From Branchiostoma floridae (lineage: Eukaryota > Chordata > Leptocardii > Amphioxiformes > Branchiostomatidae): a DNA stretch of 64,000 bases. The position numbers were made by a program, and so were the translations under genes. Below are positions 3,301 through 63,300 of this stretch, piece by piece (position 1 is the first letter of the stretch; each line of letters opens with the position of its first letter). The notes beneath the pieces were generated by a model. The model saw only the letters and a program-made list of their open reading frames with translations, did no database searches and was not told where the DNA came from. The stretch lies in the NCBI RefSeq assembly GCF_000003815.2, contig NW_023365633.1, positions 61,551-125,550 of the forward strand, written 5' to 3'.

Positions 3301-6300
3301 AAACTTGTTTGAGATTGCTTTCACCAAATATACGTTCCCTACCTGATGCCCTTCATGTTAGGACATAGTCAATGATAACTAATTATTCATTTATTATTTA
3401 TCACTTGTAGTGATGATAACTAATAGATAAATTTATCACATCCCTACCTGATGCCCTTCATGTCCTTGTACATGGCCTTGCCCAGCATGAGGGGCGCATC
3501 GTCCGGGGTCACGGCCACGTATCGCAGCAACGTCTCTCCCCGCGACGGCTGGAGATCGTTACGCTCCAACATGGCGATGTATGCGCTGATCTTCTTATTC
3601 CCACCGTGCGCCTCCTGATCCTGATGTCAACAAAAACAAATAAATAAACAACATAAACAAACAAGGTGCAAATGGTTTTCTGAAGTGATATTCATGAGGA
3701 GATGTTTTTGCTACACAAATGCTCAAATGTGCTGAGCAATATGGAGAACAGATGGGAAATCTAGTGGGTTCAATTCTTACACTGATTTTCTTGTATCAAT
3801 CCAGGTTTGGTGACAAAATGACATGCAATTTCACTAACAATAGAGTGAACATGAAACGTTTTTTGCAATTTATTACAGTCATTAATCGTACACTAACTAG
3901 TCTTGCAACTAACAGGCTTCCACTGTAACTCTTTTGTCATGTTCTATACCAATGTGGATGAGTTAATAAGCTGACCTTATACAGAGCGTTGAAGACGGCC
4001 CTGTAGACAGTTATGATAATGTTCTATACCAACATGGATGAGGTAATGATCTGACCTTATACAGAGCGTTGAAGACGGCTCTGTAGACAGTTATGATAAT
4101 GTTCTATACCAACATGGATGAGGTAATGAGCTGACCTTATACAGAGCGTTGAAGACGGCTCTGTAGACAGTTATGATAATGTTCTACACCAACATGGATG
4201 AGGTAATGATCTGACCTTATACAGAGCGTTGAAGACGGCTCTGTAGACAGTTATGATAATGTTCTATACCAACATGGATGAGGTAATGAGCTGACCTTAT
4301 ACAGTGCGTTGAAGACGGCCCTGTAGACAGTTATAATAATGTTCTATACCAACATGGATGAGGTAATGATCTGACCTTATACAGAGCGTTGAAGACGGCT
4401 CTGTAGACAGTTATGATAATGTTCTACACCAACATGGATGACTATGATCTGACCTTATACAGAGCGTTGAAGACGGCTCTGTAGACAGTTATGATAATGT
4501 TCTATACCAACATGGATGAGGTAATGATCTGACCTTATACAGAGCGTTGAAGACGGCTCTGTAGACAGTTATGATAATGTTCTATACCAACATGGATGAG
4601 GTAATGATCTGACCTTATACAGAGCGTTGAAGACGGCCCTGTAGACAGTTATAATAATGTTCTATACCAACATGGATGAGGTAATGAGCTGACCTTATAC
4701 AGTGCGTTGAAGACGGCCCTGTAGACAGTTATAATAATGTTCTATACCAACATGGATGAGGTAATGAGCTGACCTTATACAGAGCGTTGAAGACGGCCCT
4801 GTAGACAGTTATAATAATGTTCTATACCAACATGGATGAGGTAATGATTTGACTTTGTACAGAGCGTTGAAGACGGCCCTGTAGACAGTTATAATAATGT
4901 CCTATACCAACATGGATGATGTAATGATCTGACCTTATAGAGTGCGTTAAAGACGGCCCTGTAGACAGGATCCATGCTGGCCCCGCCCGTTTCCGCTGCG
5001 ATCTTTATCAGCTGGAGCCACTTCTTCCTGGCGTCACCACGGATACGCTCTGTGTACGATCTCTAAGTGGGGGGGGGGGGGGCGTACAATGTTAACATGT
5101 GGAAAATTGGGAGTTGAACACACACCACTACTAGTGGACTACCCGTATCAGTGGACTAAAGTACACCAAAATCTTTGTGTGTCTCATAAATACCTTGGAT
5201 GTAACAAAATTCCCTTACAGAGTACAAACTATGCTAGTCCAGATATCCTTGTGGGCCTCATACACAGAAAGGTGTAGGAAGCATTTCTACCCGAATGTTT
5301 GGTTCTGACCACAACAAACAAACAAATAAACAAACATACAACACGTTGCTATGGACGTCTGTTCTGTCTCACCTCCACGCTGGCACGCAGATATTCCATC
5401 ACAGCCTCGAAGCATTCGTTATCGTCTCCCGGCAACTGGTGCACCACGTCCTCGATAAACGTGCGGAACTCGCGCCGGTTCATCCGGTTGTCATGGAGAC
5501 GGTACTTCTTCTTCAGACTGGCTCTCGCTGTGTGGGGAAAAATGTTTCCATGTCAGTGAGGAAATTATTTGACTAATAATAATTGTTCACTCACGAGAAG
5601 CTCAAATCTGCATACAGTATATGCTTTATTTGAGATTATGAAGGAAGAGGTCAGACAAACAAATACTACAATGTAGTAGTATCCAAGTTGACAACATAAA
5701 AACATAAATGATATGTCCTAATAAATCTACATAGTAGCATATCCTTACACACAAAAAACATAGCAGTGAAAGTTTGTGTCCTTTTATTTGGCTATTTCTA
5801 TGATAATTTACTCCATAAGAGCAGACCGATAGATTGTGATAATTTTGACATCAGCTTACAATGGTAGCCTGAACTTACTAACTCCATGCACAGAATACTA
5901 ATAAACAAAATCATTGGACTACAGGATAGTTAAAGATTTTTAGTGTTTTGTTTCTTTTTTGAGATGATGCACTGTCTGTGGTGCTGAAAATTTGGTAGTT
6001 GCCTTCACAAGAACAAGACTATTTCTACTGAAGGTTCTAAAGTACAGCTAAAGCAGTCCTCTCTAAAAAAAGCCATCTAAGCATCCCACAAAGACAAGTA
6101 TTATCAGTATACTATTTTTATGAATATCATACTGTCTGTGGTACTGAAACATTGGTAGTTACTGAAGCTTCCCTCTCAAGCTGCCATATCTACAGACAAT
6201 ATCTGACAGAAATAAGATGTCTCCCACCTTTCTTGATAATAGCTGCCTCCATTACTTGTTATTCAGAAGGAGTCTCTCTAGAGACACTATCTAATGGAAA

Positions 6301-60368: not shown

Positions 60369-63300
60369 CTAGGTAAAAAACATGAAACTTCTCAGTCTTA
60401 CGTCACAACAATGCATTATCTCAAGTGTTGTCTGACTTGTCTCCAGCTTTCTTCTGCAGATTACAAGATGGTCACACAACTGCATTCACATTAAAAAAAC
60501 TTACAAGAAGTTTCCTCTTGGCTTTCCTCCTTACTATTGTAACCATGTCAACTACTGATAAACTACATTGCAATCTATGCCAAGCAAGTGGATATGATTT
60601 TGGAATCCAGTTGCTTGAGTAACTGTTTTTGGCGTATCTTATTACCTGGATGTCTAACCTTCATTGACATACATTGTAATCTATGCATTCCCTCCTACCA
60701 CCACCACCATACATATACACATGTAGACTTGGCTGTGAAGGAAAGGTGACTGACCTGTAGAGCACTGCCCTGTGGCTGGTCTGAAGTCTTGTCCTCCCCA
60801 CTTGTATCACAGCCTGCAGGACAAAATCAGGTAAAGTTAGTGTACAGATACATGCATTGAGAGCACCATGTTGCATGCCTACATTTCAATTGGCTGTTTT
60901 ATATGTAATTTCCAAAAGTGGAAAGCTCATATTGGCCAAAGAAAGATGCTAATGTGAATGTGGCCCAACCAGTGTTCAGTGATTCACTGCTGCTGTACCT
61001 GTGTTTAGTGACTGAATAGTGAGAGTGAGGGAGGGAGGGAGGGAGGGAGTGAGAGAAGGTGAGAGTGAGTGAGTGTGTGAGAGTGAATGTGACGTTACCA
61101 GTGTTGAGTGATTCATTGTTGCTTTGTTTGAGACTGAATAGTGAGAGTGAGGGAGGGAGGGAGGGAGTGAGAGAAGGTGAGAGTGAGTGAGTGTGTGAGA
61201 GTGAATGTGACGTTACCAGTGTTGAGTGAGCCACTGTTGATGTTCCTGTGTTTGAGACTGGATAGTGAGAGTGAGAGAATGAATGAGTGAGAGAAAGTGA
61301 GAGTGAGTGAGTGTGTGAGTGAGAGTGAATGTGACTTTACCAGTGTTGAGTGAGCCACAGTTGCTGTAACAGTTCCAGTGTTTAGAGACTGAAGAGTGAG
61401 AGTGGGTGAGAGTCAGTAAGGATGAGCGTGGCCTTACCAGTGTTGAGTGAGCCACTGTGACAGTTGATGTTCCAGTGTTTAGAGACTGAAGAGTGAGAGT
61501 GAGCGAGAGTTAGTAAGGATGAGAGTGGCTTTACCAGTGTTAAGTGATCCACTGTTGCTGTACCTGTGTTTAGTGAATGGAGAGTGATTTAGTAAGTGTG
61601 AGAGAGAGTAAGAGTGAGTGTGTGTGAGTAAGTGTGTGTGAGTGAGAGTGACCTTACCAGTGTTGAGTGATCCACTGTTGCTGTCGTCTGTCCGGGTCCT
61701 GTCCTGACTGTCTGCAGCTCCTGACAGCTCCACACCGCTGATAAAGCTGGCTCTGGAGTTCTCATCATCGTTACTGACCACAGAGCTGGGAGCTGGGGTA
61801 AACATAAACAATAAACAACAATAAACACTGTCTCCACACCCCCGATACTGCTGGCTCTCGAGTTCTCATCGTCGTTACTGACCAAAGAGCTGGGAGCTGG
61901 AGTAAACATAAACAATAAACAACAACAAAGTAACAGTCACTCCACACTACTGGGTAGGCAAGAATGTGCTGCTGTGATGTTGCTAACTGACAGTAAAATG
62001 GTTACTGTTGCCATAGTGATTGATCTGATGTCATTATGGTGATGTTACTTTAGTACTGCTACGTGACAGCACCATGGTTACTGTTGCTATATTGATGTTG
62101 CTATGGAACCATACCATAGCTACTGTTGCTATAGTGATATTGCTAGGGGACCATACTGTAATTACTGTTGCTATGTTGATGTTGCTAGGGAACCCTACCA
62201 TAGTTACAGTTGCTATGTTGATGTTGCTAGGGAACCCTACCATAGCTACAGTTGCCATTATGATAGCAATGTTGCCAGGGAACCGTACCATAGTTACAGC
62301 TGCCATAGCGATGTTGCTAAGAAACCATACCATAGTTACAGTTGCCATAGCGATGTTGCTAGGGAACCTACCATAGTTACTGCTGGAATCTTCGTTCCAT
62401 GCCGGTGTGCCAGGATTGGTGGCCTGTATGGGACTCCGGCCCGGCGTAGCGGAGCGCTCGGCATCTGTGCCGCCCGGGACCGCCTGCGCGCCATCTGACA
62501 TGACCGCGGTACTTGTCGTAGCTTGTGGCTGTGCTGACATGCCTGATGGGAAGGAAGGACAACATCATGTCTCTACTGAAATTTCTTGGAAGGAGGGACA
62601 TGAAGGTGTGCAGTCTAACGGGTCGACCCAATGGACAGAGCCGCATGGAAGCGTGGTGTGAAGACTAGCCGACTGCTGCCTACCCCTGCGTCAGGGACCC
62701 CAGCAGCAGTATAATCAAACCATGGATAGTGAGTGGGTGAGTGGGTTACGAAGGACATCAATGTGTGCTGTATAAACCTGCTAGACAGACCATGGTGTGA
62801 AAACTAGCCGACCCTTGTCAGGGACCCCTGTAGCAGTATAGTCAAATAACGGATACTACTACTGAAATACACACAAAAACATTTGTTCAGTCTGAGCCTT
62901 CTCCCTGCCGAAGTATCCTGTGGCATCACATCTGAGCTGGTTACAGGAGGGGTACTAGTAATTAAGAAGGCATTTCTCCAACCATGTGGACTCACCTTGT
63001 TCCTGTGTGTTGAGCTGATGTTGATCAGACTGTTGTCTGTTCTCCTCACCCTCAGCAGCAGCCTCTGACTTCCTGCGTAACCGTGTGTTCTGGTTCTGTT
63101 GGAGACAAGGTACCAGTCAACACGTTTCAACACACTTCCAAACTGGCTCAATCAATCTACAATTACCATAGTCTGGTATCCAGCTGTATTATAGCTATAG
63201 GGGGGTCAGGGGGCATCAACCTTCCAAGGTTTGGGGTTTGAGAGACTGTTAAGTTATAATGGTGCATTCTGAGTGGTAAATTACAAATTACTGTCTTCAA

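Follow-up and report, generated by a model that had tools for sequence, protein, structure and literature searches.

We examined a 64-kb stretch of the genome of the amphioxus Branchiostoma floridae (the window, part of a 172,562-base contig, with 299 N inside), in which four neighboring genes carry copies of their own exon edges alongside the exons. The genes are an EFCAB5-like gene, a slingshot phosphatase gene, a BICDL/HAP1-like coiled-coil gene, and a BCL7 gene. The edges are duplicated, copies of donor ends lie downstream and copies of acceptor ends upstream of the exon, most copies retain the splice site, and the differences between exon end and copy are biased toward synonymous ones. 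With moderate confidence, we read the copies as mirage minisatellites, in which young or multi-copy arrays keep exchanging sequence with the working edge and older ones decay.

Duplicated exon edges and their splice sites

Self-alignment of the window gave 141 local same-strand repeat pairs (score at least 20, offset 20-3000), compared with none in each of three dinucleotide shuffles. We curated 53 exons with 100 splice edges in the four genes, leaving aside exon predictions whose standing was low or unclear. Local repeats span 18, 14, 12, and 10 of these edges when at least 5, 10, 15, and 20 bp, respectively, are required on both sides. The 14 edges spanned at 10 bp or more, nine donors and five acceptors, bear out the claim of the initial annotation that exon edges and their splice sites are duplicated in all four genes. 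Three of them are doubtful: 8818 lies in a low-complexity exon, 26315 matches at 69% with 10 exonic bp, and 26384 matches at 73% with 13. The repeat matches across the donor edge of exon 8818-9604 were rejected as a mirage because the exon is of low complexity. Two other edges, 3448 (23 bp) and 7953 (78 exonic and just 6 intronic bp), were added to the firm list. The firm set is 13 edges in 12 introns, and doubtful and partial cases would bring it to about 17 introns; the figure of about nineteen given in the initial annotation was too high.

Twelve of the 14 places originally offered as examples, seven on the donor and seven on the acceptor side, were upheld (3337, 3941-4968, 6205, 13662, 28137, 60962-61657, 62040-62371, 8011, 25566-25823, 41269, 44268, and 61842). 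The example at 19764 fell, as its repeat ends 2 bp short of exon 19924 and the copy has no AG there; that at 26146 is a 69% match in which the AG is lost, and it is barely upheld, if at all. Further partial exon copies, beyond those listed earlier, lie at 45273, 53964, 42418 (83%), and 52428 (77%).

A uniform search was then applied to 210 exons, from the window and from kinesin genes elsewhere in the same genome, each compared with its exon-masked surroundings. Sixteen exons yielded 41 partial copies on the same strand, and there was one weak opposite-strand match; the shuffled control had none. The matches were grouped into 18 events; this list does not include the two edges of kinesin locus L018m, whose exonic parts score too low. 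The shared strand and close spacing of the copies favor tandem duplication over dispersed insertion. These data confirm that the exon-edge duplications in the window are real.

The copies follow a strict rule of side. In all 17 events with a nearer edge, copies of donor ends lie downstream and copies of acceptor ends upstream, and the remaining event is a tie. The copy reaches the exon end within 1 bp in 14 of the 18 events, including one stop-codon end and one start-codon end. GT or AG is retained in 17 of 19 top copies (23 places were tried, of which three had no spanning copy and one was a start codon). The side rule fits random tandem duplications filtered by selection, which would spare those that leave the entire exon and its outermost splice site in place. 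In older events, similarity is usually higher in the exonic than in the intronic part (96% vs 66% at 13782), a pattern that constraint on the working exon would produce; the exceptions, with the intronic part more alike, are 61792 and both L018m edges. Unit lengths of about 130-157 bp seemed frequent in edge arrays, but intron-only arrays have such units too.

Silent-leaning differences and a proposed exchange with the working exon

Across the 18 events, distinct differences between exon end and intronic copy comprise 54 synonymous and 34 nonsynonymous changes. The synonymous share of 61% compares with 27% under neutrality (P 1e-11) and with 42% for a neutral copy whose working exon changes at silent sites alone (P 2e-4), and per-site synonymous divergence exceeds nonsynonymous divergence in 16 of the 18 events. 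The synonymous/nonsynonymous ratio is heterogeneous among events (P 0.003, permutation). Eight events have no nonsynonymous difference, some of them with one or two differences in all (4934, 6316, 7724, 25824, the 5' side of 41816, 53792, 55298, and kinesin locus L050), and two more are mostly silent (kinesin loci L047, with 7 synonymous and 1 nonsynonymous, and L048, with 7 and 3). Silent divergence in these ten silent-leaning events is 0.03-0.69 per site, uncorrected, and at least 0.15 in nine of the ten. Sites that vary among the intronic copies alone, hereafter decoys, number 18 synonymous and 9 nonsynonymous in the seven events with at least two copies, indicating that the silent leaning does not come solely from silent change in the working exon. 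A first split of the data into "young" (33 to 5) and "rest" (20 to 37) was made after the data had been seen and was not used as a test.

All 12 intronic copies of the 4934 edge encode the same 11-residue peptide (not shown), and their six distinct exonic variants are all third-position synonymous, against a neutral expectation of 25%. In this one array, two exonic sites common to the 12 copies set the exon unit apart from them, and the intronic part of the far unit has diverged. The 25824 array is 98-99% identical and keeps the AG, with a single synonymous difference in one copy, and copy 28137-28214 matches its exon at 77 of 78 exonic positions (1 nonsynonymous difference) and keeps the GT. 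The donor copy of exon 45037-45183 carries 1 synonymous and 7 nonsynonymous differences (1 and 4, respectively, over the shorter stretch matched in the uniform search).

The account that we favor begins with local tandem duplications, roughly 60-360 bp long, that at times take in one exon edge. Such duplicates could persist if the gene keeps its original outermost splice site, leaving in the intron a half-exon copy that has a single splice site; published reverse transcription PCR on the globin genes is, as reported, consistent with continued use of the original site. Young or multi-copy arrays may then exchange sequence with the working edge, either by short-tract gene conversion or by unequal crossing over; if an array contracted between the exon edge and a decoy, that decoy would take over as the edge. 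As units passed repeatedly through the working position, nonsynonymous variants would be purged there, and the unused copies would keep their frame and differ mostly at silent sites. Once exchange stopped, a copy would decay as neutral intron.

Exchange between decoys and the working exon is what we infer from the copies, and published observations on amphioxus are compatible with it. Non-crossover conversions in 104 B. floridae offspring are reported at about 10,000 of paternal and 5,800 of maternal origin, mostly shorter than 200 bp (PMC12500494), and the effective population size is given as about 1.7 million (PMC12862219). The number of mirage copies is also reported to vary between haplotypes or assembly versions (6 and 3 in BflGb6; 2 vs 7 and 3 vs 6 in PGBD5). 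In a small forward simulation, 67-84% of differences were silent once scaled conversion (2Nc) was at least 5 with four units or at least 20 with two units.

Several results weigh against continued exchange. The simulated rates that purge nonsynonymous changes leave a silent divergence of just 0.015-0.09, below the values measured in nine of the ten silent-leaning events; that each event represents one genealogy is a possible excuse for this misfit. Silent sites and the adjacent 30 intronic bp diverge by 0.47 vs 0.07 at 4934 and by 0.15 vs 0.03 at L048, an excess at silent sites that is not foreseen by the exchange model. Nonsynonymous differences outnumber synonymous ones in 7 of the 18 events (both edges of the BCL7 exon, the 3' sides of 41816, 45037, and 51763 in the BICDL/HAP1-like gene, kinesin locus L033m, and slingshot 28059), and these seven look like decay. 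There is one difference of each kind at 13782, and the sites that vary among the BCL7 decoys alone are 2 synonymous and 5 nonsynonymous. Two slingshot stretches, searched for in the assembly as evidence of a second haplotype, were each single apart from a dispersed element. Finally, the synonymous bias was noticed post hoc, and L047 was fetched because its copies had already shown.

A close rival to exchange, albeit one that we consider rather unlikely, is that unequal crossing over between homologues recently brought in functional alleles that had already diverged; the silent differences would then be allelic and would require no long-term exchange. The mostly synonymous differences speak for such capture, as does the very high heterozygosity of B. 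floridae, for which a synonymous pi of 0.0397 is reported (PMC12862219). However, the silent divergence, at least 0.15 in nine of the ten silent-leaning events, is several times this value, and the intronic identity of some copies (82% at 6316) looks sub-allelic. An assembly artefact, in which two haplotypes were joined head to tail, might be suspected in a highly heterozygous genome, from the small size of the contig (172,562 bases), and from its 299 N in the window. It is made very improbable by arrays in which as many as 13 short units follow one another, by intronic identities down to 66-76%, by the same arrangement on several chromosomes, and by published mirages that are described as seen in traces or resequencing.

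The conserved copies might instead be real exons of alternative transcripts. Copy 8010-8087, with 6 silent differences and no others, contains a predicted exon at 8019-8087, and the gene finder likewise predicts 99-bp exons at two of the L047 copies. Yet it is unlikely that every one of the twelve 35-bp copies at 4934 serves as an exon, and a copied edge brings along its own splice site and no other; we regard this explanation as improbable. Both it and the artefact are less likely than exchange or allelic capture, perhaps save for copy 8010-8093. This copy of the start of an EFCAB5-like exon is readable as an extra exon, by prediction only, and is a possible case of exon recruitment from a mirage copy.

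Under continued exchange, it is possible, and we propose it tentatively, that selection on the exon is exported to the unused intronic copies, with edge and decoys evolving in concert and the frame kept over long times. Non-coding decoys would then keep an intact frame because the next exchange could put any of them in the place of the exon edge. Small gene families evolve in concert by conversion, with copies that exchange sequence and one of them under selection; unlike these, the copies here are half exons inside introns. If selection is exported in this way, silent-only divergence would be no proof of translation, which bears on the use of synonymous and nonsynonymous differences to call coding sequence. 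The arrays would also form a reservoir of alternative exon ends, with a bearing on the origin of introns and alternative exons. Should the silent leaning hold genome-wide, selection on exons would reach their non-coding neighbors through sequence exchange.

The initial annotation had likened the pattern to mirage minisatellites of the amphioxus Adh gene, and rightly so: mirages are in print for amphioxus Adh3, the globins BflGb6 and BflGb9, troponin C, and PGBD5, together with a model of intron gain (PMC3087553, PMC3902484). As these are described, they share with our copies the tandem arrangement across the exon-intron boundary at donors and acceptors, overlapping unit lengths (10-160 bp as published), GT or AG in many copies, and perhaps partly homogenized arrays. 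Published mirages are also characterized by homogenization among units that leaves out the array ends, by copy number that varies between haplotypes or tissues, and by splicing that stays normal. Our examples differ in residing in new genes, namely the four of the window and five kinesin loci, including a start-codon case, and several of their units are longer than the published ones, with offsets up to 361. The globin paper calls the mechanism of mirage duplication unclear, and the silent leaning of copies is absent from it, the word "synonymous" occurring 0 times in its main text. Intron gain by tandem genomic duplication, as described for potato RdRp (PMC4974935), likewise involves tandem duplication with splice-site sequence; in contrast, the duplication here is at an existing intron, no new intron is seen, and the copies lie outside intact curated exons. 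The class is already known; the members described here are additions to it, and the silent-leaning divergence may be a new property. We found no genome-wide mirage survey and no report of silent-leaning copies in the literature searched, which most subscription papers fall outside.

Possible preference for exon edges and occurrence elsewhere in the genome

Earlier reports of mirages proceeded gene by gene, and the dense set in four neighboring genes affords a first test of boundary preference. The initial annotation had proposed a mechanism that prefers boundaries; this is not established, and the three tests applied give different answers. By coverage, there is no excess at edges in the window, where 14 of 100 edges are spanned compared with 20.9% of intron-interior points; with edges shifted along the genes, a mean of 18.7 is spanned and 4664 of 5000 shifts reach 14. 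The coverage test puts edges at a disadvantage, since only their intron side leaves room for an array to expand. When each array is counted once under uniform placement, 15 of 31 span an edge, compared with 5.0 expected (unmasked, with L047 included and one exon-only cluster excluded). Masking the exons, which keeps exon constraint from aiding detection, leaves 14 of 43 arrays that reach an edge, compared with 4.9 expected (P 4e-5). L047 was kept out of this and the other main enrichment figures because it had been fetched for its mirage. The roughly threefold excess by event count is driven by the window, with 10 of 24 arrays against 2.7 expected, and the kinesin sample without L047 (4 of 19 vs 2.2 expected) is not significant (P 0.15).

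A two- to threefold edge preference is possible rather than demonstrated. Duplication aimed at exon-intron boundaries, with splicing-, transcription-, or chromatin-linked breaks duplicating edges more than intron interiors, would account for the excess in both event counts, masked and unmasked. We nevertheless find it doubtful in view of the coverage and edge-shift tests and the kinesin sample. Moreover, the window was chosen for exactly this feature, and the excess could instead reflect exons and their flanks duplicating more, with exon-internal events purged.

Kinesin genes on four other contigs of the same genome (C2, C4, C6, and C17) have edge copies too. For these sets, exon calls judged false were taken out, and overlapping loci were merged or swapped for a longer stretch. 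Outside L047, the 147 kinesin exons have 4 edge arrays; the start-codon copy of L050 is a fifth, from other searches. Tandem clusters number 28 in the 64 kb of the window, compared with 7 in 80 kb at eight random places (L039-L046, 10-kb stretches scanned and used for density alone) and 3 in 67 kb at nine kinesin loci; per kilobase, the window has five times as many as the random stretches. The seven short neighborhoods of a dispersed repeat, with 8 clusters in 21.8 kb, come close to the density of the window. Compared with the random places and the kinesin loci, the window is far denser in tandem duplications of every kind, and it is not representative of the genome. The arrangement occurs at several places in the genome, and the window is a hot spot; of the genome-wide pervasiveness claimed at the outset, the occurrence elsewhere holds and the density does not. 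Among the matches listed for myosin (142), Cpn60 (60), and globin (9), inspection by eye found no neighboring rows with the same query range, at a low sensitivity, as a copy needs about 28 residues to show. Some neighboring rows overlap by up to about 31 positions among the matches listed.

Gene models, coordinates and other sequence features

The four multi-exon genes of the window were delineated with a purpose-written simple gene finder and by homology. We take the minus-strand gene at ~0.25-16 kb to be EFCAB5-like, and the coiled-coil gene at 38.9-55.4 kb is presumably BICDL/HAP1-like.

Table. Genes of the window, copies of their exon ends, and edge copies at kinesin loci (window positions unless a locus is named)
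Feature	Position	Strand	Details
EFCAB5-like gene	~0.25-16 kb	-	EF-hand and GAF matches
Slingshot phosphatase gene	19.9-32.3 kb	+	Pfam and PDB matches
BICDL/HAP1-like coiled-coil gene	38.9-55.4 kb	+	Pfam HAP1_N, E 0.006, below family cut-off; weakest identification of the four
BCL7 gene	60.3-63.9 kb	-	Pfam
Short donor-edge copy of exon 3448-3620 (EFCAB5-like)	3336..3358	-	23/23 identical, 16 exonic + 7 intronic bp, GT kept
Array across donor edge of exon 4934-5062	3939..4968	-	80-bp unit (35 exonic + 45 intronic bp), 12.9 copies, 12 intronic
Donor-edge duplicate of exon 6316-6472	6189..6340	-	Offset 88, 25 exonic bp, 84% identity, GT kept, 3 synonymous / 0 nonsynonymous
Acceptor-edge duplicate of exon 7724-7953	7876..8093	-	Copy 8010-8093: 78 exonic + 6 intronic bp, AG kept, 6 synonymous / 0 nonsynonymous
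Donor-edge duplicate of exon 13782-13972	13539..13828	-	Offset ~100, 47 exonic bp; exonic 96%, intronic 66% identical; GT kept
Array across acceptor edge of slingshot exon 25824-25952	25542..25916	+	131-bp unit; intronic copies at 25566 and 25697, 93 exonic bp each
Array across donor edge of slingshot exon 27920-28059	27982..28513	+	Offset 155; copy 28137-28214 with 78 exonic bp
Acceptor-edge duplicate of exon 41816-42031	41288..41837	+	Offset 361, 22 exonic bp, 76% identity, AG kept
Acceptor-edge duplicate of exon 44576-44692	44245..44594	+	Offset 204, 19 exonic bp, 78% identity, AG kept
Donor-edge duplicate of exon 45037-45183, degenerate	45117..45385	+	Offset 156, 67 exonic bp, GT kept
Partial copy of exon 53792-53912 in next intron	53834..54000 (copy 53964-54000)	+	95% over 37 bp, 2 synonymous / 0 nonsynonymous; ends 42 bp before edge
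Copies at 55631 and 55788 of end of last coding exon 55298-55411 (BICDL/HAP1-like)	55381..55862	+	Stop-codon region, in 3' flank; not a splice edge
Array across donor edge of BCL7 exon 61658-61792	60954..61684	-	~97-129-bp units, at most 27 exonic bp, 6 copies, 3 synonymous / 5 nonsynonymous variants
Acceptor-edge duplicate of BCL7 exon 61658-61792	61728..61929 (copy 61832-61929)	-	104-bp, AG kept, 2 synonymous / 5 nonsynonymous
Array at donor edge of BCL7 exon 62372-62542	62071..62392	-	42-bp-based, 14-21 exonic bp, GT kept in three copies shown
Kinesin L047, acceptor edge			Three units of 151 bp
Kinesin L048, donor edge			Four units of 134 bp
Kinesin L050, start-codon exon copy	992-1051 (gene orientation)		ATG kept, three silent differences, adjoining upstream part 59% alike
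Kinesin L018m, two donor edges			
Kinesin L033m, one donor edge			

Two dispersed elements lie in the window. One, of about 120 bp at 24985-25105, is 93-97% identical at no fewer than 39 other places in the genome and is possibly a young short element. The other, of about 113 bp at 3210-3322, is 85-89% identical at no fewer than 39 other places, and the neighborhoods of seven of its copies are rich in tandem repeats. Telomere-like GTTAGG repeats occur at 26404-26483 in a slingshot intron, near an assembly gap. The large low-complexity exon of the EFCAB5-like gene (8818-9604) is rich in glutamate and lysine. Among the loci outside the window, kinesin locus L036 contains a 117-bp tandem duplication of 100% identity (100-335), and the random locus L045 contains a 69-bp tandem array (9542-9999) in which the gene finder predicts a long open frame.

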